The notes under the pieces are model-generated. The model worked only from the letters and a program-made list of their open reading frames with translations. It did not search any database and was not told the origin of the DNA. Shown one piece after another: positions 3,631 through 28,542 of a DNA stretch of 31,346 nt. The position numbers and the translations under genes are program-made. The number at the start of each line of letters is the position of its first letter. Position 1 is the first letter of the stretch. Location of the stretch: positions 1 to 31,346 of the IMG/VR virus record IMGVR_UViG_3300035661_000237. One strand, 5' to 3'. Source of the stretch: a virus.

Positions 3631-5292
3631 ATGACAATGATTAGCAGAGGAATGTTCGTAGACTTTAGCACAGGTTATAATTTTGTTAACCCCAATCTTA
3701 TTGCCTTTGAGGAAATGCTAAATGCCGAGGACGTTCAACGTATACGCAAGTATATAAATAACTGGAATTTTTATGATGGATTTCATTGGCAGAATATTGA
3801 GTCTACAGATAAGCCAGAAATAACTCAGAATTGGTGTCGTAGATTCGTTAATAAGTTTGCATCAGCAGAGTTTTCGGGAGGAGTAGCATGGAAGTTCGAC
3901 CAAGAAATTGAGTCGGAAATTCTACCTTTCTTAGATGATGTGTGGAAAGATAACGGCAAAGATGTTCTGTTCCAAGAGATAGGACAAGCAAAAGGAGTTA
4001 CCGGGGATGTATATTTGCATGTTCATTATGAGCCTAAGATGATTAATGGACAGGTAAATCCCGACTTCGATGACCCTTATGAACTTTACCCTAATGGAAG
4101 AATCAGACTGTTTATAGTACCCCCTAGTATCTGTTTTCCTATTTGGAAAGATGGTTATGATATGGGAACTATGGAAAGTTGTACTATTATGTTTCCCGTT
4201 AGAAAAGACCCTAATGCTTTTGGACTAGGACAAGCAAACCGTTATGAGATTATGAAATACGTTTATACCTCTAATTACATTCAAGTATTTAGAGGTAAAG
4301 ACCTTGTTTCTAGCATGGACAATCCTTATGGAGTTATTCCTATTGTTCATTTCAAGAATCTATCCCTTACTGGTAGACACTTTGGACTATCTGACCTTGA
4401 AGATATTATTCCTCTAAATGTGGAATTAAACTTAAAGTCCTCTGATATTTCAGAGATTATTGACTACCATTCTGCCCCTATTACAGCAATTTTTGGTGCT
4501 AAAGTCACTCAATTAGAAAAAGGCGCGAATAAAGTATGGGGGGGATTGCCGAAGGATGCTAAGATAGAGAATATTGAGTTGAGTGGAGACTTACTTGCGG
4601 CAAATACCTATAGGGACAATATTAAACTTGCCATGCATGAAATTGGAGGAATACCACAGTTCGCATTAGGAGGAGGTAAAATTCCCCGTGTACTCTCTGG
4701 AGTATCTCTACAAATTGAGTTCATGCCTTTATTAGATGTTATCAATGCCAAACGTTCTAATACCGCAAAATCATTAAAAAATGTGAACCGTATTATCCTT
4801 AAAATAGGACAGCAAGAAGGTCTTTTAAAGTTAAGTAAGGACTTTAAGCCCGCTCAAATATATAATATGGATTCAATATTCGGGGATATTCTACCAAAGG
4901 ATATGACGCAGGAACTAGAACAATTACAATCAGAATTTAAAATGGGGCTTGAAACACGCGAAGATGCTTTAAAACGTCTAAAACGTGATAATATCCAAGA
5001 TAAATTGGCCAAAATTGATGCAGAACGTATATCCAATGCTATGGTATTTGGAATAAATCCTGTTGCTATTGCCGCAGGACAAAAGTTAGTCGACCCAGAA
5101 ACAGGTAAAGTTATAGCAGATAATCCTGCTCCTTTATCTGCAATTAGTGAAGGTCAGAACCCTGAGAACAAGGAAAATCCTAATAAACCAGTTGGAACAA
5201 ATAAGTCTGGTAATGATATGAAGGTTAACTCAGGAATAATGAACTTTAACCCAGGAAAGCAGAACCATAAACTGAGTAATTCTGCAAAATAA
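3631..5292 (+). CDS. Portal protein (SPP1 gp6-like)
   Basis: 553 residues, located directly after the large terminase and before scaffold and capsid, as in most tailed phages. The pattern fits the portal family: an N-terminal helical region with N-W-N-F-Y-D-G, a central part with G-V-T-G-D-V-Y-L and G-V-I-P-I-V-H-F, and a long helix-rich middle (V-E-L-N-L-K-S-S-D-I-S-E-I-I-D-Y) that would form the wing/stem. The C-terminal ~60 residues are Asn/Pro/Lys-rich and probably disordered. It forms the dodecameric ring for DNA entry and tail attachment. ATG at 3631 follows GGAGTTGAT; a second in-frame ATG at 3637 is also possible. Confidence 0.88.
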   Translation: MTMISRGMFVDFSTGYNFVNPNLIAFEEMLNAEDVQRIRKYINNWNFYDGFHWQNIESTDKPEITQNWCRRFVNKFASAEFSGGVAWKFDQEIESEILPFLDDVWKDNGKDVLFQEIGQAKGVTGDVYLHVHYEPKMINGQVNPDFDDPYELYPNGRIRLFIVPPSICFPIWKDGYDMGTMESCTIMFPVRKDPNAFGLGQANRYEIMKYVYTSNYIQVFRGKDLVSSMDNPYGVIPIVHFKNLSLTGRHFGLSDLEDIIPLNVELNLKSSDISEIIDYHSAPITAIFGAKVTQLEKGANKVWGGLPKDAKIENIELSGDLLAANTYRDNIKLAMHEIGGIPQFALGGGKIPRVLSGVSLQIEFMPLLDVINAKRSNTAKSLKNVNRIILKIGQQEGLLKLSKDFKPAQIYNMDSIFGDILPKDMTQELEQLQSEFKMGLETREDALKRLKRDNIQDKLAKIDAERISNAMVFGINPVAIAAGQKLVDPETGKVIADNPAPLSAISEGQNPENKENPNKPVGTNKSGNDMKVNSGIMNFNPGKQNHKLSNSAK

Positions 5293-5307
5293 ATTAAAGT
5301 TTTTCAA

Positions 5308-5389
5308 TTAGGTTACTTGTTTAAATGCGGTTTTTATCCTACAATAAAAATCGAGCAAAAAATTTATGGTTTTGTAATAAGTAACCTAA
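5308..5389 (+). promoter_or_regulatory. Nested RNA stem structure in the portal-to-next-gene gap
   Basis: A perfect 11-bp inverted repeat (TTAGGTTACTT 5308-5318, AAGTAACCTAA 5379-5389) encloses a second 10-bp stem (CGGTTTTTAT 5328-5337, ATAAAAATCG 5344-5353, one G-U). It lies just before the ribosome site of the 5416 gene. There is no T-run right after it, so it is not an obvious terminator. It could be a cis-acting mRNA element, a processing site or a remnant. Confidence 0.45.
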
Positions 5390-5415
5390 ATTTTAATTTA
5401 AGGAGTGATACCTCA

Positions 5416-5607
5416 ATGGCTAGTAACGATGAAAACACTGGAGAATTATTCCAAGGTACAGGTAATGATACTCTTGCTGAAATTAAAAGCAAAATGGGAA
5501 TGTCTGAAAAAGTTAAAAAAGGCGGGGCCGATGTATACCGTGAAAATGGACAGTACAATGACTTTTGGAAACCCGTTCAGACTCCTCAGCCTGGTTGGAA
5601 TAGATAA
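5416..5607 (+). CDS. Small protein of unknown function between portal and scaffold
   Basis: 63 residues beginning at ATG 5416 after AAGGAG (5401-5406). An upstream in-frame ATG at 5317 would read through the stem structure and has no ribosome site. The protein is hydrophilic with a helical middle (L-A-E-I-K-S-K-M-G-M-S-E-K-V-K-K) and a proline-rich end. Position suggests a head-assembly accessory, but no family is recognised. Confidence 0.65.
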   Translation: MASNDENTGELFQGTGNDTLAEIKSKMGMSEKVKKGGADVYRENGQYNDFWKPVQTPQPGWNR

Positions 5608-5635: not shown

Positions 5636-6391
5636 ATGCCTGACAATGATAATGTAAATCAGAACACAGAAACAAACCAGAACACAAATACGACAGGTTC
5701 ACAAATTGACTTTGAAGCCTTAATTGCGAAAGCAAGACAGGATGAAAAGAATAAACTCTACCCTGAGATTGAGAAATTAAAAGGCGAGTTAACAATTAAA
5801 ACTGAAAAAATGAACGCATTGCTACTTTCTGGTTCTGAAAAGGATGACGATATAAAATCCAAGGAAGTCAAGATTGCCGAATTGGAAAAGAAAATTGCCG
5901 ATTTAGAAGAGAAAGAGGGTAAGCATGTGGAAACATCTAAAGAACAAAAGGAACTAGAAAAGAAAGTGGCTGAACTAGAAAAACAACTCGCGGATAAAGA
6001 TGCTGAGATTTCTAGAATTGCTCTTGAAAGTTACCGCAAAGAAAAATCTGCTGGACTCGATGAGTCTGTAGTTGATTTAGTATCTGGCTCAACTAAGGAA
6101 GAGATAGACGCTTCTGTAGTTAAAGCCAAAGCACTATTTGAAAAGATTAGTGCTAAGTTTGGCGGCGTTACGAAGGAAGATGAGAAGAAGGAAGAAACCT
6201 CTGAAAAGAAAGAAGAAGAGAAGAAACCTGATAATAAAATTCCTTTACCCAATGTAAACCTCAATGACTCCGAGAAGATTTTTAGAGATGCTAAACCGGA
6301 AGATTTCCGCGATATGGACATTTCTACTCCAGAAGGTCGTAAGCATTGGGAAAAAATGCGCGTCGAATTAGGTATTGGAAAGAAAAGATAA
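5636..6391 (+). CDS. Capsid scaffolding protein
   Basis: 251 residues preceded by GGAGGATAA. The polar, Asn/Thr-rich N-terminus is followed by a long Lys/Glu coiled coil (about 40-125), then a helical segment (V-D-L-V-S-G-S-T-K-E-E-I, ~145-175) and a highly charged linker of Glu/Lys. The conserved-looking end reads D-M-D-I-S-T-P-E-G-R-K-H-W-E-K-M. This layout and the place immediately before the major capsid gene fit the scaffold family often annotated DUF4355 or gp20-like. It would organise capsid subunits inside the prohead and leave before DNA entry; no protease domain is present. Confidence 0.8.
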   Translation: MPDNDNVNQNTETNQNTNTTGSQIDFEALIAKARQDEKNKLYPEIEKLKGELTIKTEKMNALLLSGSEKDDDIKSKEVKIAELEKKIADLEEKEGKHVETSKEQKELEKKVAELEKQLADKDAEISRIALESYRKEKSAGLDESVVDLVSGSTKEEIDASVVKAKALFEKISAKFGGVTKEDEKKEETSEKKEEEKKPDNKIPLPNVNLNDSEKIFRDAKPEDFRDMDISTPEGRKHWEKMRVELGIGKKR

Positions 6392-17487: not shown

Positions 17488-17888
17488 TGACTAACTTCGA
17501 GGAGTTATTTAAACTTGTGGGAAGTAAATATCAAAAGTATGATGAAAATGGAAAAGCATTGGGGTGTCTTGCCCCGATGTATAGTGCATTTCCCGATGAA
17601 AAGGGGTACCGTTTTGATTGGCCCGAGGGTGTAGATTTGCGAGAATATATGCTCAGCGAACTTGATAAACATTGTGATAGAATACCTTTAGATGATATAC
17701 AGCCAGGGGATTTTTTAACAATGAAAATGCCTAGAGGATTATATCACGTTTCCTTGTATTTAGGCGATGGAAAAATGCTTCATTGTTTAGAGTGCGGAAC
17801 AGAAATTTCGCGAACTATATTATATAAAAATAGGATTGAAAGGGGGTATAGATGGAATGGCAGGAGCCGCAATGAGTTTCTTCTTTAG
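17487..17888 (+). CDS. NlpC/P60-like tail tip peptidase (gpK-like)
   Basis: 133 residues, ATG at 17487 overlapping the upstream stop. The candidate catalytic Cys is C27 in A-L-G-C-L-A-P and the His is H87 in L-Y-H-V-S-L-Y-L-G-D-G; Q-P-G-D-F-L (72-77) is the usual strand before the His. The cysteine context is G-C-L-A rather than the common D-C-S-G, so activity is less certain. By family knowledge such proteins cut peptidoglycan cross-links or assist tip assembly. Its end overlaps the gpJ-like gene by 32 bp. Confidence 0.75.
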   Translation: MTNFEELFKLVGSKYQKYDENGKALGCLAPMYSAFPDEKGYRFDWPEGVDLREYMLSELDKHCDRIPLDDIQPGDFLTMKMPRGLYHVSLYLGDGKMLHCLECGTEISRTILYKNRIERGYRWNGRSRNEFLL

Positions 17889-20800
17889 TTTTGCTGGAAG
17901 TTTATTAATGAGTTTGCTTTTTGGACAGGACGATGATACCCAAAGCCCAACATATAGTGGTTCGTTGAGAACTGCCATATCCAATACCTTACCTATACCT
18001 TTAGTGTACGGAACCGTAAAATCTGCCGGAAATATGATTTGGAGCAAAATTAATGATGATAAAACATGGCAGTATAAATTAGTTAGTTTTGGCGATGGCC
18101 CTATTCAGGGATTTAGCGATGTCCGTATTAATGATGTTCCTATTGATGGTAATGTCACCGCTTTAACTATATGGAATAATGTTTATCCAGATTCCTGTGT
18201 TAGTATAGATAAAAATAATATCATTACTTTACATGCAAACGGAACTGATATACAGGTGGAAGGTGCTATTCCTGACCATGATGACGGAGAGGGAAATGGG
18301 ACAGGAGGAAATGAAAAGTCTTTTGAAGATGTTGGTGCAGAAATAGAGTCTTATGGTGGTGGATGGGAAGTAGAAATACCGGGGAACACTTTTGATGCCG
18401 CAAACTTAATACCAATTGTGGCCAAAAGTTGTTATAACTCTCCAGTGTCTTTACAGGTGACAAAAACTTCCGATATGATTAAAGGTGCTTGGTGGAGAGG
18501 ACACGTTGGGGATGGAAGTGAAGCTATTGATGCTATTATCTCAGGACAGACCACAACTAAAGTATGGGTAACTGTTGCTGATAATGGTAAAAATGGTAAT
18601 CCAACAACTTATGCGGGGTATAAAACAGTTAAAGTTATGGGTGACCCTGTAGTACAAGCCTGTGAAGTTGGCGGATTAAAATGGGAAGCATATATAGCTG
18701 TAGGTGTAGAAGCCACTAATATGATTAGTGATAGTTATAACGTTACTGCTATTGTACAAGGAAGATTAGTTAGAGTTTATACTAGTCCTACTGCCTATAC
18801 TATAAGATGGAGTAATAACCCTGCTTGGTGCATTGCCGATTTTTTAACCTGTGACAATGGATGCGGATTAGATTGGAGTCAATTAGATATTCAGTCCTTC
18901 ATTGACGCCGCCACTTATTGTGATGAGTTAGTATATAATGCGGGAGGAAGCACAACAAAGTCAAAACGATATACTCTTAATTATGTACTAGATAGTAAAA
19001 AGTCCCGTTTAGATTGGATTACTGATATGATGAGAGCGTGTTGCTCTTACCCCACATATCAAAATGGACTTTATGGAATGTGCATAGAAAAGGAAGTTAT
19101 AGGCTCTGCACAGTCTTATGACCCCGATTGCATGGATGAATTACAATTATGGTGGAGTCCTATTGAGGAAGTTCCAGATAAAGTGCATGTAATATATGTA
19201 GACCCAAAATATGAATGGGCGCAAATTGCTGCGCAAGCTGAATCAAAAACTTGGCTTAGAGAGTTTCCTTTCATAAAAGAGGTTGAAATATTCGGAGTAA
19301 CTAATTTCTCGCAAGCTAGTAGATTAGCTTGGTTCTATCTTAATCAAGCAAACACATGCACTATGTACTGTAAATTTAAAACCGACCGCAGGGCGTTAAG
19401 TAGAGCCATTGGAGATGTAATTGATATAACAGATTATATCTGTCAATTTACGAATAAATTATTCCGCATAATGCAAATGTCCGAAGCAGATGATGATATG
19501 ATTGAGGTAACTTGCAGGGAATATAATGGAAGTTTATATACTGATGAATATGGTTCAGTTCCTACCTCTGTAAACTATGCAACATTATCCAATCCTTTTG
19601 GGACAATTCCCGAAGTAACTAATATTAATTCCACGCAGGATTATTATGTTCAAAAAGATGGAACGATAATTTCAAATGTTAATTTATTTTATTCTTTACC
19701 TGACTATATATTTTTTGACCATGTTATGGTAGAATATTCTATAGATGACGGAAGTACATGGAACTCCGCAGGAACTACTACAAATAGTTCATTTTGTTTA
19801 ACTAACTGTAAAGTTGGACTTTATTATCTTGTTAGAGTTAGGGTAGTTAATAATATTGCATGTAAGTCAGATGGAGCAGTTTCTTCCCCTATCTTAATAC
19901 TAGGAAAGGACGATAACCCCTCTGATTTAGACTCTAATTTTATTGTCGCACAAGTTCCGGGGGGATTCACCTTTAATGGTAGTATTCCTTCTGATACCGA
20001 TTTTAATAGGATAGAGATAAGAGTAGACCCTGCTACAGGGTCTGCTGGATGGGGTAATTCCCAATATCTTTGCTCTATTACTAGTCTGCCCGCTACTATC
20101 CAAAATACAGCTGTTGCCGATGGAACTAGATTATTTCGCGCAAAAGCGGTGGATAATGGAGGAAATTATAGCACGAATGATGTAACAGTGATAGTAGATG
20201 TCGTTGGAACAGATAGCTATAAAAATATAATATTAACTAGGGATGATGCTTATTTAGGGGATGGAACTATAACCAATCTAGTTAAACTTTCAAATAATCA
20301 AGGATTTATAGTTCCTTTTTGTGTGCAATGTGGGGATTATGACACTTTTGGCAATTTGCCATTCTCTGTTTGGCCTAACATTAATTTATCCTTCTATTAC
20401 TTATCCCCTATAGTGGACACCTCAAAACTTGGATTAACAGGAGTAGTATTTGACTTTAACATTAGTTTACATGATGCTATAGCTATGTTCGGTTCTTATG
20501 GAACAAGAACTTTTGGATTATACCCGTTAGATGCTTTTGGAAACGTTACGGCAAACAGTACTGTGGGTATACAAATGCGTTTTAGTAAAACGAGCGCAGT
20601 AATTGATGATACTTGGACTGATTGGATGACCTATACTCCCGCGCAATATAATTTTAGATATATTCAGTACCAAATAAATTCCGCTTTTGAGAGTAGTACA
20701 GTTAAGGCAATGATAACACAACTACTTCAAAAGTATGATGTTCCCGATGTCACGTTCAGTAAGAACGTTTCAGTATCCGCCACAGGAACTCATGTTGATT

Positions 20801-20979
20801 TTGGCGGAGTATTTTATGCTCAACCTACGCAAGTTTCTGTTCAGGTAGTTGGAAGTACAGCTATAACAGCTACTATTTCATGGGATGCCACCCCTTCTTC
20901 CGGATTAACTGTTCACTGTTTTAATACCAGTGGTACTGCTGTTGCAGGTAATGTAATTTTAGTTTGTAAAGGATATTAA
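17857..20979 (+). CDS. Tail tip attachment protein (gpJ-like)
   Basis: 1040 residues from ATG 17857, which has AAAGGGGGT 9 bp upstream; a TTG at 17836 lies within that site and is rejected. The hydrophobic N-terminus (M-S-F-F-F-S-F-A-G-S-L-L-M-S-L-L-F-G) resembles the membrane-active part of gpI. The following L-P-I-P-L-V-Y-G-T-V is the conserved start of gpJ/megatron proteins. The middle carries the hub domains. Residues ~590-790 read as fibronectin-III-like modules (V-E-Y-S-I-D-D-G-S-T-W, Y-L-V-R-V-R-V-V). The C-terminus is beta-rich and probably points toward the receptor or anchors the fibres that follow. Apparent fusion of gpI-like and gpJ-like parts is an inference. Confidence 0.85.
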   Translation: MAGAAMSFFFSFAGSLLMSLLFGQDDDTQSPTYSGSLRTAISNTLPIPLVYGTVKSAGNMIWSKINDDKTWQYKLVSFGDGPIQGFSDVRINDVPIDGNVTALTIWNNVYPDSCVSIDKNNIITLHANGTDIQVEGAIPDHDDGEGNGTGGNEKSFEDVGAEIESYGGGWEVEIPGNTFDAANLIPIVAKSCYNSPVSLQVTKTSDMIKGAWWRGHVGDGSEAIDAIISGQTTTKVWVTVADNGKNGNPTTYAGYKTVKVMGDPVVQACEVGGLKWEAYIAVGVEATNMISDSYNVTAIVQGRLVRVYTSPTAYTIRWSNNPAWCIADFLTCDNGCGLDWSQLDIQSFIDAATYCDELVYNAGGSTTKSKRYTLNYVLDSKKSRLDWITDMMRACCSYPTYQNGLYGMCIEKEVIGSAQSYDPDCMDELQLWWSPIEEVPDKVHVIYVDPKYEWAQIAAQAESKTWLREFPFIKEVEIFGVTNFSQASRLAWFYLNQANTCTMYCKFKTDRRALSRAIGDVIDITDYICQFTNKLFRIMQMSEADDDMIEVTCREYNGSLYTDEYGSVPTSVNYATLSNPFGTIPEVTNINSTQDYYVQKDGTIISNVNLFYSLPDYIFFDHVMVEYSIDDGSTWNSAGTTTNSSFCLTNCKVGLYYLVRVRVVNNIACKSDGAVSSPILILGKDDNPSDLDSNFIVAQVPGGFTFNGSIPSDTDFNRIEIRVDPATGSAGWGNSQYLCSITSLPATIQNTAVADGTRLFRAKAVDNGGNYSTNDVTVIVDVVGTDSYKNIILTRDDAYLGDGTITNLVKLSNNQGFIVPFCVQCGDYDTFGNLPFSVWPNINLSFYYLSPIVDTSKLGLTGVVFDFNISLHDAIAMFGSYGTRTFGLYPLDAFGNVTANSTVGIQMRFSKTSAVIDDTWTDWMTYTPAQYNFRYIQYQINSAFESSTVKAMITQLLQKYDVPDVTFSKNVSVSATGTHVDFGGVFYAQPTQVSVQVVGSTAITATISWDATPSSGLTVHCFNTSGTAVAGNVILVCKGY

Positions 20980-20994
20980 AAGGAGATTGATATA

Positions 20995-22197
20995 ATGCCA
21001 GATTTTAAAACATATATTCCCGGTAATACTACAGTAATGTTGACAAATGCTGTGGATAGTAGAAATAACGAAAACCTTTTACAATCTACTTTCTATGGAA
21101 GTTCTCCTCCTAATAACCCTACTCAGGGGCAGAAGTGGTGCTGTTCAACTAACAATATAACTTATGTTTTCACTGGAGTAGCTGTTGATGGACAGATTAA
21201 TACAGGATGGGACGAAGATGTTTCCACTTCCACTATAGGTAAGGATGTCATAGATGCGTATGGAACTCAGCCTAGTCTTGCCGCTAGACTTGAAGTAGCT
21301 TTAAATGATGACGGTAGTTTGAAATTATCCGCCGCCCAGAACCCTACCGAGTGGGTTGACCCTGGATTAACATACACCTATGTTAATACGACTCAGTTTA
21401 CTACAGCGGGGGATAAAAGAACATATTTCTCTGTGAATAGGCCATTAAAGATAACTACTAATGGGGTTACAGTTTACACCTTTGTAACTTCCTTATCCTA
21501 CTCCACCGTGACAACGGTTACTGTTAGAGATGCTGTATTAAATTCAGCGGGAATAACTAATGTTCAGTACGGATGGGCTAGTAAGTATACGCAGGATTCG
21601 AAAGGAATTAAAGTAACTCCCACTGGAAATATTACCGCCGTAAATGTGCAGGATGCTTTAGCCGCTCTTGACTCAGGTAAGTTGAATGTTAAATTAGGAA
21701 CCCCCTCTATTTCGATGGGGGCGGCAAGTTTTCCTTCAAATCCAGTGAAGAACCAAGACCTGTGTTTTGATACAAAGAAACGTATTTGGTATCAATTTGG
21801 AAATGTTATGTGGCAGGAATATTGTGCATATGTCACTAGAGCCAATTCCACAGCATATACGTTAGGTGTATATATTGTTCAAAGTGGACATCTATACAAA
21901 TGTACTTTAGCCGGAACTTCTAACAGCTCTTTACCTGTTTTTATTACTACTCCTAATTCAACTACAACAGATGGTACTGTAGTATGGACAGAACAGGGAG
22001 TATGTACTACTTGGGCTAGCTCAACTTGGTATAGTCTTAACTCTTATGTAATTCCTGTTTCAGCCAACGGACATGTTTATGTTAATACCGCATATGGAAC
22101 TTCTGGAACTAACACCCCTGCTTGGCCTACTACTACGGGAACTGAAATTGAAGAAACATACTCTAGCTGGATTCCATGCGCCACTATGTATGTATAA
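20995..22197 (+). CDS. Tail fibre protein A
   Basis: 400 residues after AAAAGGAGATTG. The first ~230 residues are homologous to the N-terminus of the fibre encoded at 26719-28542 (A-V-D-S-R-N-N-E, N-D-D-G-S-L-K-L, G-N-I-T-x-x-x-V-Q-D-A-L), so this part is a shared virion attachment module. The C-terminus differs: two tandem ~55-residue modules of the type W/Y-x-x-G-x-Y-V...G-H-V/L-Y-x-C/N...G-T-S (about 270-400), resembling small carbohydrate-binding modules of phage tail proteins. Likely a receptor-binding fibre or spike at the tail tip. Confidence 0.75.
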   Translation: MPDFKTYIPGNTTVMLTNAVDSRNNENLLQSTFYGSSPPNNPTQGQKWCCSTNNITYVFTGVAVDGQINTGWDEDVSTSTIGKDVIDAYGTQPSLAARLEVALNDDGSLKLSAAQNPTEWVDPGLTYTYVNTTQFTTAGDKRTYFSVNRPLKITTNGVTVYTFVTSLSYSTVTTVTVRDAVLNSAGITNVQYGWASKYTQDSKGIKVTPTGNITAVNVQDALAALDSGKLNVKLGTPSISMGAASFPSNPVKNQDLCFDTKKRIWYQFGNVMWQEYCAYVTRANSTAYTLGVYIVQSGHLYKCTLAGTSNSSLPVFITTPNSTTTDGTVVWTEQGVCTTWASSTWYSLNSYVIPVSANGHVYVNTAYGTSGTNTPAWPTTTGTEIEETYSSWIPCATMYV

Positions 22198-22214: not shown

Positions 22215-22727
22215 ATGGCAACTCAATGGACTGACTCTGTAATTCAAAAAGGTGGTGGCACAAAAGTAAGTCCGAAGCACATTACTGAACTTCGTTCAGC
22301 AATTGTTGCAGAGGAAACTCGCAGAAATGTTGCCGTAAGTGGGTTTAATGATACTATTGCTATAGGAACTCCTGTTAAAAAAATGCACATTGATGATTTA
22401 CGCACTGCTTGTAAAACAATTAATAGTTCTAACTTTACGGATGATACTATTGTAATAGGTAATACGGAAGTTAAAGAAGTGCATATAGACGAATTACGTC
22501 TTAGAGTAAACACTTATGAATCTTATAGCCCCGGTGCTTTTTCTCCTCATGGATGCTCTGCCGCTTGTACCGGATTTTGCACCAGTTGCACTAATGCTTG
22601 CACCAGTTGCACCAGTTGCACTAATGCTTGCACCAGTTGCACCAGTTGCACTGGTTGCACCGGTTGCACCAGTTGCACCAGTTGCACTGGGACATGTACT
22701 GGTACTAATTCTGGAGGTTCACATTAA
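22215..22727 (+). CDS. Phage structural repeat protein with C-terminal Cys-Thr-Ser repeat tail; candidate radical SAM substrate
   Basis: 170 residues, ATG after GGAGATGAA, 17 bp downstream of fibre A. Residues 1-100 contain three repeats with motifs H-I-T-E-L-R (22-27), H-I-D-D-L-R (58-63) and H-I-D-E-L-R (90-95), each preceded by a G-T/N-x-V turn; this repeat is familiar from phage tail and adhesin proteins. From 114 to 161 there are 15 cysteines spaced 3 or 4 residues apart (C114, 118, 122, 125, 129, 132, 135, 139, 142, 145, 148, 151, 154, 157, 161), mostly as C-T-S-C, with Asn-Ala or Gly variants. It ends in a Gly/Ser-rich tail. Three radical SAM genes follow, so the cysteine tail is probably crosslinked as in thioether RiPPs. 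Zinc or Fe-S binding or disulfides are alternatives. The substrate role is inference. Confidence 0.8.
   Translation: MATQWTDSVIQKGGGTKVSPKHITELRSAIVAEETRRNVAVSGFNDTIAIGTPVKKMHIDDLRTACKTINSSNFTDDTIVIGNTEVKEVHIDELRLRVNTYESYSPGAFSPHGCSAACTGFCTSCTNACTSCTSCTNACTSCTSCTGCTGCTSCTSCTGTCTGTNSGGSH
22578..22691 (+). repeat. In-frame tandem DNA repeats (30-bp and 9-bp units) encoding the cysteine tail
   Basis: Two identical 30-bp units (22578-22607 and 22608-22637) are followed by six 9-bp units of TGCACCAGT type (22638-22691), with ACC/ACT and AGT/GGT changes. All unit lengths are multiples of three, so slippage would add or remove cysteines without breaking the frame. Confidence 0.95.
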
Positions 22728-22742
22728 AGGGGTGAATTTTAA

Positions 22743-23279
22743 TTGACTTTTAGTGCATTAAATTTTATTAATTACTACGATGCTTCGCTTGAAGTAAATA
22801 GGGATAATTTAATCGTTATCCTTACTCAAATCACTCCTGCTTTAGTAAAAGAATATCAATCTATTATAACTTCCTTGGTAGAGTCTGATATTTCAGCAAT
22901 AAACTCCTACATCTCCAACCAATATATTTATAAAGTTGTTTCGATTATGTTGGATGCTAATAATAAACTTAGCCGTGAACAGGGAATTATAATAGTGCAG
23001 ATTATGAATATGATTAATGCAGTATATCCTGTCTTTTCATATTTGGTAATTACTGAGTTATTAGCAAGCAATGACCCTGACAATTTTTCCGTCGCCAGAG
23101 ATTTGATTGATAATCATTTATTAAGTTCTAATCTATCTACCTCAGAAAAGATTAACCTGTTACTTTTCCAAGTGCAAATAGAAATGATATTAGCCTCTAA
23201 AGAAGGCCGCGCAATAGATAGAATGTTGTTGCAAAAGAGTCTTAGCCTAGTTAATGCGTTACGTGCAGATGAAAAATAA
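22743..23279 (+). CDS. All-helical protein of unknown function in the radical SAM cassette
   Basis: 178 residues, TTG start at 22743 with AAAGGGGTG upstream. The sequence reads as successive amphipathic helices (L-V-K-E-Y-Q-S-I-I-T-S-L-V, I-N-L-L-L-F-Q-V-Q-I-E-M-I-L) with no cysteine and no recognisable winged-helix precursor-binding domain. It lies between the Cys-rich protein and the first radical SAM gene and overlaps the latter, so coupled expression is likely. It might deliver the substrate, act as a chaperone, or regulate the cassette; none of this is shown by the sequence. Confidence 0.75.
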   Translation: MTFSALNFINYYDASLEVNRDNLIVILTQITPALVKEYQSIITSLVESDISAINSYISNQYIYKVVSIMLDANNKLSREQGIIIVQIMNMINAVYPVFSYLVITELLASNDPDNFSVARDLIDNHLLSSNLSTSEKINLLLFQVQIEMILASKEGRAIDRMLLQKSLSLVNALRADEK

Positions 23280-24126
23280 CATAGTAGCTATTCACTTAAC
23301 AGATAGATGTAATATGCGTTGCACTTATTGTTATCTTAATAAGGGTAAGTCGGACACTAAATATTCCGATATTAAAGAAGTTCTCCACCGTATGGATTTT
23401 GATTCATTGTTTTTATATGGTGGAGAACCCCTCCTATGTATGGATACTATAAGAAAAATTGCGTCAGAAACAGATAAGCAGTTATGGTTGGAAACTAATG
23501 GATTGTTATTGCCGAAGCATATAGAGGAATTATTGCGTATTAATATTCGTCCTTTTGTATCCTTGGATAGCTTTGATTATGAGATTAATTGTAGATGCCG
23601 CCCTATGCGACCTAATGAGTTTAATGATTTAGTTTCGGTTATTAAGGAATATAAGCTGGATATTATTAATAATATTTACGCAGGATTAAGAGGAACGAAG
23701 GAATTTTACAATACGTGTAAGCAGTTAGGTATCAAATGCGACACATACCCTGTCATTACCCCTCAGAATTGTGAAGATGTATCTTGTATAGAAGAACTCC
23801 CGATTGATGTTTTAGTATTTCTGGGGCGACACCAGACACCTCATACGCGACCCAAGTTGCGCCTTCATGTTGATGGATATGTTTCCCGTATTTTTGACCC
23901 CGGAAGTATGCGAATTTCCCATATATCTAAATGGGAGCCGAGAATGGAATCTCTGGGGGAACTGCCCTATCCTAAATCTTGCGAGTCTTGTGAAGTATTT
24001 GGCAAATGTATGTTCTTATCTTACTTCTGTTATTGGGCGTGGATATATGACCAGATGGGAATTTTGCATGCTTCGTTTGGGTGTAAGGCAAGTAAAGCTA
24101 TTTATAGGAGAAGATTTGATGTATAA
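23269..24126 (+). CDS. Radical SAM protein 1 with half SPASM-type cysteine set
   Basis: 285 residues from ATG 23269, whose start overlaps the upstream stop; an ATG at 23254 is an alternative, and neither has a good ribosome site, so translation is probably coupled. The radical SAM 4Fe-4S motif is C14-x3-C18-x2-C21 (T-D-R-C-N-M-R-C-T-Y-C-Y), followed by G-G-E-P (51-54) for SAM binding and E-T-N-G. The C-terminus has C238-x2-C241-x5-C247-x6-C254-x17-C272. This matches the second half of a SPASM domain, while the usual first-half Cys after D-G is absent (H-V-D-G-Y-V-S-R). It may therefore hold fewer auxiliary clusters than its neighbours. It likely modifies the Cys-rich protein or assists the other two. 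Confidence 0.85.
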   Translation: MKNNIVAIHLTDRCNMRCTYCYLNKGKSDTKYSDIKEVLHRMDFDSLFLYGGEPLLCMDTIRKIASETDKQLWLETNGLLLPKHIEELLRINIRPFVSLDSFDYEINCRCRPMRPNEFNDLVSVIKEYKLDIINNIYAGLRGTKEFYNTCKQLGIKCDTYPVITPQNCEDVSCIEELPIDVLVFLGRHQTPHTRPKLRLHVDGYVSRIFDPGSMRISHISKWEPRMESLGELPYPKSCESCEVFGKCMFLSYFCYWAWIYDQMGILHASFGCKASKAIYRRRFDV

Positions 24127-25168
24127 CCGCTATAAGTCGCACGAAACAATAGCAATTATTATTACTAAAATGTGTAATTTGCGTTGTAAATATTGCTTTG
24201 AAGATGACCACTCAGTAGAGCATGTAGATGTAGATAAGGTAAAAGAAACATTAACTTATCTATTAAGCCTACCTCCAGCAAGGGAGCAAGTTCTATATTA
24301 CTTCTTTGGTGGAGAGCCTTTCCTAAGAATTGATGAAGTTATTGAATTAGCGGATTTTATCCATGAGAAGGAAACAAGACCTTACCAAATTTTATTCTTC
24401 ACCAATGGAACACAATTCGGTAACGAAAAAGTGCGCAAGTTTATAGAAAGGGACAAAGAGGAGAAGCAAATTGTCATTTCTATAGATGGATGCCCCGAAA
24501 CCCATAATGAATATAGATGTAATTCCTTTGACACTATAATGGAATATTTCTGGTGGTGGAGAAAGTTATTTCCCGCAGAAAGAGTTAGAGGAACAATGAC
24601 ACCAGAAACCATAGTCGATTTATTCAAGAATTTTAAGTATATGTACCAAGTTCTTGAGTGTCGAAACTATATTGAGATTGAGTTTGCTCATGGCCCTGGA
24701 ATTGCGTGGAAGGATGAACACTGCGCTATCTTAGAAGGACAGTTAGAGCAGATTGCCGACTACCTTCTTGGAATGAACAATCCTCCCGAATTTAGTATGT
24801 TCAAACGTTATAGCTCTCTTTTAATAGGAGAACAAGCACAATGCGGATGCGGAGTGCTGTACAAAGGAATTGACGTAGATGGAACCATTTATCCGTGTTC
24901 TGGATTTGCCGCAGAAAGAATGTATCCTCTTGGTAAGACCATTGATGATGATAAGATTGAACCTTTTAGATTCGTTGGATATGCTAGAGGTAAAGAGTGT
25001 CTTGACTGTGAATTAAGACTTATGTGCTTTGAATGTCCATATGTCAGGTATAAAATTAACAATAGTATTTTTGAAAACACTCCGATAACATGTAGCGCAA
25101 CCAAAGTTATAGCCAAAGTTGCAAAGTCTTATTTTGAAAGGAGTAATAAACTTGATTATAAAGTGTAA
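24119..25168 (+). CDS. Radical SAM / SPASM peptide maturase-like protein 2
   Basis: 349 residues; ATG 24119 has TAGGAGAAG upstream and overlaps the previous stop by 8 bp. The longer open frame to 23867 lies inside the previous gene. The core motif is C19-x3-C23-x2-C26 (K-M-C-N-L-R-C-K-Y-C), then F-G-G-E-P (63-67), F-T-N-G and S-I-D-G. The SPASM region is complete: C242/C244, D-G-T-I-Y-P-C260, C294-x2-C297-x5-C303-x2-C306, C325. Enzymes of this build install Cys-to-carbon thioethers or C-C links in peptides, or modify sulfatases. With a Cys-repeat protein in the same operon and no sulfatase, peptide crosslinking is the better guess. Confidence 0.9.
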   Translation: MYNRYKSHETIAIIITKMCNLRCKYCFEDDHSVEHVDVDKVKETLTYLLSLPPAREQVLYYFFGGEPFLRIDEVIELADFIHEKETRPYQILFFTNGTQFGNEKVRKFIERDKEEKQIVISIDGCPETHNEYRCNSFDTIMEYFWWWRKLFPAERVRGTMTPETIVDLFKNFKYMYQVLECRNYIEIEFAHGPGIAWKDEHCAILEGQLEQIADYLLGMNNPPEFSMFKRYSSLLIGEQAQCGCGVLYKGIDVDGTIYPCSGFAAERMYPLGKTIDDDKIEPFRFVGYARGKECLDCELRLMCFECPYVRYKINNSIFENTPITCSATKVIAKVAKSYFERSNKLDYKV

Positions 25169-25628
25169 GGATTCAGAAGTTTATACTAAAGTTCTTCAGG
25201 CAATTGGGTGCAAAGAGTACAATATTGATTTAGATGTAACTGTGGATGATTTCCGTATTTATGATTCTGAGTTAAAAAAGGTTGCAAATTTAATATATGA
25301 CAATTATAATGTAGGTATAGAGGTAGCAGTAAATGTCATCACTGATTTGCTGACTGCTAGTGAAGTAACTATACCAATGGAACATGAAGAATTTGCACTA
25401 TTCTGCAAGCATTGTCCTTGCTATCAATGCAAACCTGACCCCGATTTATTTGAATCTGTTACTGGAGATAGGTATTTTCCTCCGAAGAAGTTTTGCGAAA
25501 AATCATTCGTGGAGTTGGATGCATCTAGATATTTAATTAATAAACTGGAACTTGATTTAGGAGTTTCCGACATATCCTTTGAGGAATTTAGAGATGTAAT
25601 ACACGCATATTATGGGGCGGTGATTTAG
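25152..25628 (+). CDS. Small cysteine-cluster protein of unknown function in the radical SAM cassette
   Basis: 158 residues from TTG 25152, which has AAAGGAG 8 bp upstream and overlaps the previous gene by 17 bp. A helical N-terminal part with C5 and C20 precedes a compact cluster C85-x2-C88-x-C90-x2-C93 plus C115 (F-C-K-H-C-P-C-Y-Q-C), well suited to bind zinc or an Fe-S cluster. The C-terminal third is acidic and helical. It sits between radical SAM genes 2 and 3, so a role as an electron carrier, scaffold or substrate-binding partner is plausible. A second, minor substrate is also possible. No family recognised. Confidence 0.75.
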   Translation: MIIKCKDSEVYTKVLQAIGCKEYNIDLDVTVDDFRIYDSELKKVANLIYDNYNVGIEVAVNVITDLLTASEVTIPMEHEEFALFCKHCPCYQCKPDPDLFESVTGDRYFPPKKFCEKSFVELDASRYLINKLELDLGVSDISFEEFRDVIHAYYGAVI

Positions 25629-26707
25629 TGCCGTATAAAAAAGCATTAATGGCTGATGAATTTCCTTGCACTAAAACTATAACATTTATGGTAACTGAGG
25701 AATGTAATCTTAGATGTTCATACTGTTATGAAGAAAATAAATGCCACAAAACTATGCCCTTTGACATAGCTAAAAGGGCAGTAGATTTATTATCCCCTGA
25801 TTTTAAAGACTCCGGTAAAATCTATTGGGAGTTTATTGGTGGGGAACCCCTTCTGGAGATAGATTTAGTTGACCAAATTACTGACTATATTCTGCAAAAG
25901 TCCCATAAGGAGTCATGGAAAAGTCAGCAAGTATTCTTCATTACTACTAATGGGACTTTACTTGGCGATGAAAAAGTGCGCAAATATTTATTAAAAGATA
26001 AGTGCAAAAAGAGTGTAGGACTTTCCTTAGATGGACCTAGAGATGTGCATAATATAAATAGATGTGATTCATGGGATGTTGTTATGGCTAACTTTGGATG
26101 GTGGAGAAGAAACTTCCCTTGGTGTACAACCAAGTCTACAGTTAGTCAGAACACACTTCCTCATTTATTTAGAACTATCAAGTTCCTTACTGACCTGGAA
26201 TTAACCGACATTTTTATCAATCTCATATATGAAGCTGAATGGACGGATGAAGATGCCGCGATATATTATGACCAATTAATTTTAGCGGCAGATTATCTCA
26301 TAGACTCTGGAGTTTATGAAACATCAAATGTATCTCTATTCCATGAACTGCTGAACACTGACAACTTTAATAGAAAATCTGGATGGTGCGGATGCGGAAA
26401 TTCCATGTTAGCAATATCTCCAGATGGAGGAATTTACCCCTGTCTACGATTCTATACCGGAAAGGATTGGATAGTCGGGGATGTATGGAACGGAATTAAT
26501 AATGAACGAATTACTCCATTCCAGTATTGTCATAATGAACGTAATTCTGAATGTCGGGACTGCGAATTATTGTGCAAATGTCCTCATTGTTTAGGATGGG
26601 ATTATCAATCAACCGGGAGTATTTTTAACCGCTCAACTAATATCTGTAAGATGTTTAAGGCTCAAGTAAAAGCTAATCAGTATTTCTTTGGGCGCATTAA
26701 TAAATAG
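25628..26707 (+). CDS. Radical SAM / SPASM peptide maturase-like protein 3
   Basis: 359 residues, GTG at 25628 sharing one base with the upstream stop and preceded by GGGGCGGTGAT. Core motif C26-x3-C30-x2-C33 (E-E-C-N-L-R-C-S-Y-C-Y), G-G-E-P (71-74), T-T-N-G and S-L-D-G. SPASM cysteines are C254/C256, D-G-G-I-Y-P-C272, C309-x2-C312-x3-C316-x-C318-x2-C321 and C340, a denser arrangement than in protein 2. It is clearly a paralogue of protein 2 (shared G-D-E-K-V-R-K / G-N-E-K-V-R-K and W-W-R-K/R segments) but diverged. Probably acts on the same Cys-rich protein at other positions or residues. Fibre B starts 12 bp later. Confidence 0.9.
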   Translation: MPYKKALMADEFPCTKTITFMVTEECNLRCSYCYEENKCHKTMPFDIAKRAVDLLSPDFKDSGKIYWEFIGGEPLLEIDLVDQITDYILQKSHKESWKSQQVFFITTNGTLLGDEKVRKYLLKDKCKKSVGLSLDGPRDVHNINRCDSWDVVMANFGWWRRNFPWCTTKSTVSQNTLPHLFRTIKFLTDLELTDIFINLIYEAEWTDEDAAIYYDQLILAADYLIDSGVYETSNVSLFHELLNTDNFNRKSGWCGCGNSMLAISPDGGIYPCLRFYTGKDWIVGDVWNGINNERITPFQYCHNERNSECRDCELLCKCPHCLGWDYQSTGSIFNRSTNICKMFKAQVKANQYFFGRINK

Positions 26708-26718
26708 GAGGAATTAAA

Positions 26719-28542
26719 TTGGCGCAAACCTTCGTCAATACTATACCTAATTCGGGTTCAAATATATTGCAAACTGCGGTAGATAGTAGAAACAATGAAC
26801 TTGCTTTACAATCTAATTTTAGTGGAACTTCTTTTCCAGGTAGTGCTGTAGCAGGACAGACTTGTTATAGAACTGACTTAAATGCGTATTTTACATTCAA
26901 TGGAATACTGTGGGGAGAAACTTTCTTAAGTTCCACTATGGGAAGGGATATAAAAACGGCATATGGAAGTATGTCTAATTTAACAAATAGATTAAATGTT
27001 TCTTTAAATGCAGATGGAAGTTTAAAACTTCCTGCTGTTATGAACTTTTCGTCATGGATTGATTTAAACCAATCTTATACCTATGTAAGTGCTAATTCAT
27101 TCACAATACCGGGAGATTGGACGGGAACACTTACTCCGGCAAAACCCCTTCGTCTTACTTGCAATGGAGCCTTTGTTTACTCTTATGTAGCTTCTATTGC
27201 ATACGCAGCAGGGGTATCAACTGTTACAACTCTCGACTCTACTCTTGTTTCTCCAATTACAGCACTACAATATGGAATACTGGATAATTATGTAGGAAAT
27301 GCTAAAGGAATTATATTCACCCCATCTGGTAATATTACTTCCTATACTGTGCAAGATGCTTTAGTAGAATTGGATGCAGAAAAATTAGCCAATACTACTT
27401 CTTTTACAGGGGATTTTAACTTAAAAAGTACTGGAGGATACTACGTAACTAGTACAACAGGGCAATCCAATGCCCCCAATTCAACTGATACTTTCTTGTT
27501 GTCGGTAATGTCAAACATATCAAAGACCTTTGTTGTTCAACAAGCTGTAGGATTAACTTCTGGAGTAATATATAACCGTCAGTATAATACTGGGGCATGG
27601 AGTGTGTGGGATGTAATGCCTACAATGGGAACATTACCTACTACTAACCGTAACCGCATAATCAATGGAGATATGAAAATTGCGCAAAGAGGAAATACCC
27701 AAGCATTATCAAGTTCTGCCGCTTATGGAAGTTTGGATAGATGGTGGGCATTAATGTCTAATTCTGCCGCAGGGTCTGTTAATGTTGTAGCTATATCTGA
27801 CTTAGTAGGATATAGTAGTTGCGCTAAATTAAATAGAACTAGTGCTTCTGCATTAACAAATTCTATACTATTTGGACAAATAATAGAGAGTGCTAACTGT
27901 TATTCACTTCAAGGTAAAACAGTAACATTATCATTTTATGCTAAAGCTGGGGCAAATTTTTCTTCATCTTCTGGGGTATTAAATTCTTTTATAGTAACCG
28001 GAACGGGTGTAGACCAAGGATTGTCATCTTTATCCGCTTCTACTTGGACAGGACAGACTACTGCAAGCACTAAGGCAAATATACTTACCACTTCTTGGCA
28101 GAGATTCACACAGACAGTAACTTTGGGAGTAAATATTTCAGAGATTTCCGTCCAGTTTGGATTTACTCCTGTGGGTACTGCTGGAGCAGATGATTCCTTT
28201 TATATTACAGGAGTGCAATTAGAAGATGGATATACTGCTACTGCGTTTGAATTTTTACCTGTTTCACATATGATTAATTTATGTTTAAGATATTATGAAA
28301 GACTGACCCTTCATGTTAGAACTTATGCCGCCGCGGCTGGTTCTCATGGTATACCTGTAAGTCATACTTCTAAAAGAGTAATTGCATCTTCTAGTGTAAT
28401 TACAGCCCCCACATATACTAATGCTTCTGCTGCAAGTTGTACTCCTGAGGGATTAAATACAGCATATATTCTTTTTTCAATGTCAGCGGCAGGTAACTCC
28501 TCCATTACTGGATACGTTGTTGGATTAGATGCGGAATTATAA
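26719..28542 (+). CDS. Tail fibre protein B
   Basis: 607 residues, TTG start at 26719 with AGGAGGAATT. The N-terminal ~230 residues repeat the module of fibre A (T-A-V-D-S-R-N-N-E, N-A-D-G-S-L-K-L, G-N-I-T-S-Y-T-V-Q-D-A-L). The C-terminal part has N-R-I-I-N-G-D-M-K-I-A-Q-R-G, the aromatic jelly-roll-like body and V-Q-L-E-D-G-Y-T-A-T-A-F-E-F-L-P, a combination common in receptor-binding phage tail fibres with a carbohydrate-binding fold. Shared N-termini imply that A and B dock at equivalent sites on the tail tip. Confidence 0.85.
   Translation: MAQTFVNTIPNSGSNILQTAVDSRNNELALQSNFSGTSFPGSAVAGQTCYRTDLNAYFTFNGILWGETFLSSTMGRDIKTAYGSMSNLTNRLNVSLNADGSLKLPAVMNFSSWIDLNQSYTYVSANSFTIPGDWTGTLTPAKPLRLTCNGAFVYSYVASIAYAAGVSTVTTLDSTLVSPITALQYGILDNYVGNAKGIIFTPSGNITSYTVQDALVELDAEKLANTTSFTGDFNLKSTGGYYVTSTTGQSNAPNSTDTFLLSVMSNISKTFVVQQAVGLTSGVIYNRQYNTGAWSVWDVMPTMGTLPTTNRNRIINGDMKIAQRGNTQALSSSAAYGSLDRWWALMSNSAAGSVNVVAISDLVGYSSCAKLNRTSASALTNSILFGQIIESANCYSLQGKTVTLSFYAKAGANFSSSSGVLNSFIVTGTGVDQGLSSLSASTWTGQTTASTKANILTTSWQRFTQTVTLGVNISEISVQFGFTPVGTAGADDSFYITGVQLEDGYTATAFEFLPVSHMINLCLRYYERLTLHVRTYAAAAGSHGIPVSHTSKRVIASSSVITAPTYTNASAASCTPEGLNTAYILFSMSAAGNSSITGYVVGLDAEL

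Follow-up and report, generated by a model that had tools for sequence, protein, structure and literature searches.

Why would a phage keep three radical S-adenosylmethionine (rSAM) enzymes and a Cys-repeat protein between two of its tail-fibre genes? This arrangement is found in the virus record IMGVR_UViG_3300035661_000237, of which positions 1 to 31,346 (31,346 bases) were analysed and are called the window here. The cassette consists of six open reading frames (ORFs) lying tail to head, with a plausible ribosome-binding site before each, in the order Cys-array protein, helical protein, rSAM1, rSAM2, small Cys protein, and rSAM3. A preliminary description of the window had given six genes in this order between two fibre genes, and all six ORFs were recovered. 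Our answer is that the rSAM/SPASM enzymes probably install Cys thioether crosslinks on a tail appendage—which would make the cassette a phage tail-protein maturation system. The gene set, the co-occurrence of enzyme and array, the tail context, the fibre fusions, and the selection on the array are all features that can be read in the sequences. The cassette comprises the following features, where the better fit to a ribosome-binding site makes the ATG at 24119 the more likely start of rSAM2 and the TTG at 25152 the more likely start of the small Cys protein:

22215–22727, plus strand: Cys-repeat protein, the predicted substrate, with an attachment-type domain (about residues 1–112) and a 15-Cys array (from Cys spacing and domain homology)
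22554–22697, plus strand: the Cys array proper, C-X2/C-X3 repeats with CTS/CTN/CTG units (from spacing analysis)
22743–23279, plus strand: helical accessory protein (no family match; position as for an approximately 185-aa helical protein in other phages)
23254–24126, plus strand: rSAM1, a radical SAM protein without full SPASM domain (PF04055, E=5.5e-15; 28% identity to its relative in locus L018)
24119–25168, plus strand: rSAM2, a radical SAM protein with SPASM-like cysteines (PF04055; NF047865 PapB, 119 bits; TIGR04115, 116 bits)
25152–25628, plus strand: small Cys-cluster protein related to TIGR04119 (E=6.3e-12, below the curated cut-off; homologue in L018 with 30% identity, E 5e-15)
25628–26707, plus strand: rSAM3, a radical SAM/SPASM protein of the CXXX-repeat-target type (TIGR04115, E=3.1e-87, 293 bits; SPASM PF13186)

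The enzyme families point to the chemistry. All three rSAM proteins pass the cut-off of the Pfam Radical_SAM model (PF04055) with an intact CX3CX2C motif, so that the three radical SAM enzymes of the preliminary description stand. The SPASM assignment made there for rSAM2 is less firm, as the SPASM cysteines are present but a Pfam SPASM match is lacking. rSAM1 bears a short C-terminal Cys cluster only, while rSAM3 also passes the SPASM cut-off (PF13186), and the cysteines of both its radical SAM core and its SPASM region are invariant in enzyme alignments. By far the nearest NCBIfam family of rSAM3 is TIGR04115 ("radical SAM peptide maturase, CXXX-repeat target family"), with PapB-type and SCIFF maturases next in order. 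The substrates of SPASM enzymes of the TIGR04115, PapB, and SCIFF types are peptides that contain Cys, and thioethers are the products of those that have been characterised. The best solved structure by enzyme profile is 5wgg (E=4.6e-47), which we take to be the SCIFF enzyme CteB, a maker of Cys–Thr thioethers. The helical protein at 22743–23279 finds no family match in library scans, and hhalign shows no link between it and the approximately 185-aa helical protein found between array and rSAM elsewhere. The partner family TIGR04116 has no match in the window and a weak one in phage L045 (E=0.005), whose Cys array passes the TIGR04114 cut-off. A short rSAM paired with a SPASM rSAM is also found in L018 and in the group of phage SPN3US. 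The set of three enzymes is a local peculiarity of the window, as most relatives bear one rSAM.

The relation between enzyme and array was assessed on 102 phage loci with rSAM3-type enzymes, which two alignment-based queries against IMG/VR had returned; an array was scored wherever an ORF contained seven or more Cys at spacing 3 or 4. Such an ORF is present in 78 of the 102 loci—in each case on the enzyme strand and never on the opposite one—with a median gap of 328 bp between array gene and enzyme gene. Of the 83 loci whose enzyme is of the close type, scoring 350 bits or more against the phage profile, 72 show an array under the standard code (64 of 72 distinct enzyme sequences), and 74 do so when L116, whose array becomes visible with TAG as Gln, and L106, whose array is short and interrupted, are included; for more distant rSAMs, the array is found in 6 of 19 loci. 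It had been set beforehand that homologues usually occurring without a Cys-repeat gene would speak against the proposal, and this count shows the opposite. A reverse search with the array-protein domain finds the enzyme within reach in 20 of 21 loci, the exception being a 5.3-kb fragment. Hence, that the enzymes belong with the Cys-repeat protein is borne out from both sides. A blind control with a DNA pattern for four CxGx units returned loci with 36 array-like ORFs, seven of which were assigned a Ser/Thr/Gly composition by our own reading. For six of these seven, the enzyme lies in the same stretch, and the seventh belongs to phage CR5, where the full record shows rSAMs next to the array; among the remaining 29 ORFs, mostly of Gly/Pro/Arg type, none has the enzyme beside it (0/29).

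The enzyme tree, a quick FastTree calculation with warnings about long branches, places the main phage enzymes together in a single large clade of 83 rows, next to a bacterial clade whose targets carry a twin-arginine translocation (Tat) signal. Outside of this main phage clade lie the best-scoring window enzyme together with L018, and the SPN3US group together with L081 and L117. Cys arrays accompany the enzyme in several of these lineages, and also in stop-codon-recoded phages, in which TAG is read as Gln and, in one case (L089), TGA as Trp. In L058–L068, most of the missing frames are restored by reading TAG as Gln; the TAG-recoded phages L058, L059, L066, L067, and L068 bear the enzyme and a small helper-like protein in the tail operon, with no visible array. 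Phage-type loci also occur in named bacterial genomes (Neglectibacter timonensis, Eubacterium pyruvativorans, Anaerobacterium chartisolvens, and Faecalibacterium sp. I4-1-79).

Some further arrangements were encountered in these searches. An rSAM fused to a long N-terminal region is found in L112:7005-9245, directly before a tail-fibre gene, and in L114:6894-9227, both with no array in reach. Further-related rSAM genes lie near tail-fibre-like genes without a CXXX array in L115:4664-11820 (four genes, adjoined by a small CxC-rich protein) and L085:7995-12341 (two genes). At L102:13420-15756, a second rSAM precedes a protein of 364 aa whose 81 Cys lie in Asp/Asn-rich CCxxDC-type repeats; with its similar N-terminal region, it might be a second target class in the same phage. 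The rSAMs of Campylobacter phage CP220 were rejected as a cassette because their match is weak and no CXXX array lies beside them, the Cys ORF there being of another type. Such a different array—CxxC with Asn/Lys/Asp/Arg/Tyr and no adjacent rSAM of the TIGR04115-like type—is present in L200:17842-18213 (CP220) and L007:2918-3604 (an IMG/VR phage). The Cys-repeat matches of L005–L007 were likewise dropped, their repeats being of CTDC/CRYC type and the enzyme absent, and the human-gut scaffolds MT835702, MT835472, MT836452, MT837846, MT838578, and MT836133 were set aside, as their rSAMs resemble bacterial SCIFF maturases.

The predicted substrate is built from two parts. In the window, its array comprises 15 Cys at spacing 3 or 4, with Thr following 93% of the Cys and no charged residue, which fits a Cys–Thr scheme. 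Across the phage arrays, which reach up to 86 consecutive array Cys, the residues beside Cys vary among Ser, Thr, Gly, Asn, and Asp, and since Ser or Gly follows Cys in other phages, the acceptor residue is uncertain. The window array has no NCBIfam match in spite of its CXX/CXXX spacing. Its DNA is a 9/30-bp tandem repeat; slippage of the DNA as the sole cause of the array was rejected, as a codon analysis shows relatives holding the Cys pattern through synonymous changes. The second part is a helical domain (LKxRVKxEMxRR … EHxxKI) that lies N-terminally in most phage array proteins and is followed by CxxxC[TS]GxC. The domain of the window protein is homologous to that of 40 other phage Cys-array proteins (hhalign probability 93.5, E 2.4e-7) and 40% identical to L018 in this region. 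In L021, L022, L027, L028, L038, L042, and L055, the order is reversed, with the array ahead of the same domain (hhalign 98.1%, 6.6e-14). A domain that works at either end of the array looks, judging from the sequences, more like an attachment domain than a simply cleaved leader. Its predicted fold (predicted local distance difference test score, pLDDT, of 77) retrieved only uncharacterised phage proteins and no solved relative in a fold search. Tat-type signals are absent from the window protein and the phage arrays examined, and present in the bacterial loci L142–L199. The nearest relative of the window Cys protein, at L018:4405-5520, carries a Hint (intein-like) domain immediately behind its array, which suggests self-processing.

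The context of these proteins is the tail. In the window, the cassette is flanked by the following genes:

17836–20979, plus strand: lambda J-like central tail fibre/host-specificity protein, as context (PHROG phrog_31 "central tail fiber J", E=3.5e-60)
20995–22197, plus strand: tail-fibre-like gene preceding the cassette (43% identical to the downstream fibre over 228 aa; C-terminus phrog_20658)
26719–28542, plus strand: second tail fibre, a paralog of the upstream fibre (phrog_4492 tail fiber, E=4e-30)

The tail identity proposed for the flanking genes is thus supported by J, by the two paralogous fibres, and by the PHROG match of the downstream one. The paralogy of the two fibres (20995–22197 and 26719–28542) covers 228 N-terminal residues, which looks as though a duplicated fibre gene had taken up the cassette. 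When viral contigs were searched with the single sequence of the window rSAM3 or of the window J protein, no relatives came up. For the relatives, PHROG and Pfam scans covered the 84 genes that immediately precede 31 cassettes: the commonest PHROG families are tail-fibre, tail-collar, baseplate-wedge, and baseplate families, and the Pfam matches include Baseplate_J, Mu gp48, Phage_tail_fib, and collagen. Array and fibre are even fused in some phages. The L117 protein bears a PF12571 tail-collar fibre domain (1.8e-40) with the array at its C-terminus, followed by an accessory gene and two rSAMs within a contractile-tail gene cluster—presumably the fibre-chaperone position in P2-like phages. Likewise, L081 encodes a collagen-like fibre and L079 a fibre-repeat protein, each with a C-terminal array. 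The window Cys protein itself carries no recognised tail-fibre domain but the phage-specific domain only, the fusion being seen in these three loci; PHROG matches of array proteins are otherwise mostly to phrog_6085, whose function is unassigned (59/79). The earlier proposal of a tail-type substrate is in line with these neighbours and fusions.

Selection on the array can be followed in SPN3US-like phages. Two long array genes are found in SPN3US, SPAsTU, phiEaH2, Machina, ChrisDB, CR5, and Phobos, and the first five of these bear a short third one with four array Cys; the array genes have a virion structural gene on one side and, on the other, an accessory gene and two rSAMs. For SPN3US (NC_027402), they map to L014 5097-5489, 5500-5904, and 5920-6126 and come after genes 0170–0167; the rSAM genes there are numbered 0163 and 0164. 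Several of these array genes are unannotated—the SPN3US genes at 5097-5489 and 5920-6126 are among those missed or mis-annotated—and the CR5 array (L203:7172-7564) is covered by CR5_157, annotated on the opposite strand. The first arrays of SPN3US and SPAsTU differ by 42 synonymous and 4 nonsynonymous changes, and 21 of 21 array Cys are kept despite eight TGC/TGT switches, with the domain less constrained. At the level of codons, the array genes of the SPN3US group are hence real genes under strong purifying selection for the array. The proteins gp168–170 of SPN3US are reported as tail-fibre/baseplate proteins by mass spectrometry (PMC10052503; PMC5694885).

We infer the substrate relation, the thioether chemistry, the virion location in the window phage, and a function in adsorption or stability, and these would fit together as follows. 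The Cys-repeat protein would be a subunit of a tail appendage, with the conserved helical domain—N-terminal in most phages, C-terminal in others—probably anchoring it to fibre or baseplate, and the radical SAM/SPASM enzymes would act on its Pro-free, Ser/Thr/Gly-rich Cys array as their substrate. Working in the host cytoplasm ahead of tail assembly or in its course, rSAM3 together with rSAM1, rSAM2, and the small SPASM-like protein might bind the array and abstract side-chain hydrogens beside successive Cys. Cys-to-carbon thioether bonds would then be closed, bridging each Cys to a neighbouring residue, and the Thr after nearly every window Cys may be compared with SCIFF-type Cys–Thr linkages. 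The floppy array would in this way become a stapled rod or tip on the virion, resistant to protease and reductant and probably serving adsorption.

Several observations weigh against such a maturation system. rSAM3 scores below the curated TIGR04115 cut-off (293 versus 350 bits)—a cut-off that phage relative L033 exceeds (431 bits) and L009 misses (301 bits)—and the TIGR04119 match of the small Cys protein likewise stays below its own. The enzyme occurs without a visible array in L058, L059, L066–L068, L112–L114, and L118. The array proteins go unmentioned in the main text of two proteomics papers on SPN3US virions; this silence could be explained by missing annotation and by the near absence of Lys and Arg, which make up 1.0% of the arrays and leave almost no tryptic sites. 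Finally, the close bacterial relatives have exported targets of unassigned function, so the product need not be structural. In a different reading, modification would turn the array into a toxin, a signal, or a factor for manipulating the host, of the type of ribosomally synthesised and post-translationally modified peptides (RiPPs), which is made during lysis or carried and delivered by the tail and is no structural part. Close bacterial relatives of the enzymes do modify exported CXXX peptides (with a Tat signal, and with TatA/TatC adjoining in L008), and the array of L018 is followed by the self-processing Hint domain. However, no exporter, leader peptidase, or immunity gene was seen in the phage cassettes and neighbourhoods examined, the phage arrays lack the Tat-type signal, some are fused to canonical tail fibres, and the array lies in the tail operon rather than in a lysogenic or lysis module. 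We consider a RiPP-type product improbable, and the RiPP-like toxin that the preliminary description had offered as an alternative gained no positive support.

Somewhat less improbable, though still unlikely, is that the enzymes act on the array by another reaction—epimerisation, other Cys–C bonds, or the making of a cofactor- or metal-binding array. The varied residues next to Cys, unlike the single acceptor of some known systems, speak for this, as do the three distinct rSAMs of the window, which suggest more than one reaction. Nevertheless, the nearest characterised relatives by profile are all Cys-thioether enzymes or sulfatase maturases, and Cys itself is the universal constant of the substrate, which favours thioether formation. 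It is very hard to reconcile with the data that the rSAM and Cys genes are mere neighbours within transferable cargo, or that the rSAMs are viperin-like defence genes. The paralogous flanking fibres and weak matches to pVip models might be taken as hints, but enzyme and array co-occur in both directions and in several lineages, and the CXXX-repeat maturase family is matched best, by a wide margin over viperin; the viperin/defence reading was rejected.

The enzyme and the repeat type of this putative tail maturation system are already known, as they are catalogued for bacteria in NCBIfam (TIGR04114 and TIGR04117 targets, TIGR04115 rSAM, TIGR04116, and TIGR04119). Phage and bacterial systems share the enzyme family—the phage clade being sister to the bacterial Tat clade—and Cys-X2/X3 Ser/Thr/Gly repeat targets, with traces of the TIGR04116 and TIGR04119 partners in phages. 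On the contrary, bacterial targets carry a Tat signal, whereas phage targets do not and bear a phage-specific helical or a tail-fibre domain instead, are often much longer, and lie in tail operons. The SCIFF maturases (CteB, Tte1186) and PapB ranthipeptide maturases are likewise radical SAM/SPASM enzymes that form Cys-to-side-chain thioethers, as predicted here for the phages; SCIFF also provides the closest solved structure and a parallel to the Cys–Thr adjacency of the window array. Yet their substrates are short, hold few Cys, and are not virion proteins, and the window scores lie far below the equivalog cut-offs. Fibre post-assembly and chaperone systems such as lambda Tfa and P2 gpG help folding, without covalent radical chemistry. 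What appears new is the virion-appendage setting and its scale: the open papers searched, with bioRxiv and many subscription journals outside the scope, contain none on phage CXXX arrays or rSAM-modified tail proteins. To our knowledge, radical SAM peptide chemistry is established for small secreted peptides and enzyme cofactors and not for building virus particles.

Judging from these results, the CXXX-repeat enzyme family seems to have a large phage branch that serves tails. Dozens of unrelated phages carry the same kind of cassette, including well-studied Salmonella giants with overlooked Cys genes—genes that are now exposed in model phages—and the roles of the "radical SAM superfamily protein" genes of SPN3US, phiEaH2, CR5, and their relatives become directly testable. 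We see an even chance that part of the tail tip of many tailed phages is made from a ribosomal polypeptide which phage-encoded radical SAM enzymes turn into a long poly-thioether rod or knot. This would be a new, covalently stapled structural material of virions that evolved independently several times, among others in Salmonella/Erwinia/Cronobacter jumbo phages and in stop-codon-recoded phages, and it might open a route to genetically encoded, covalently stapled protein fibres.

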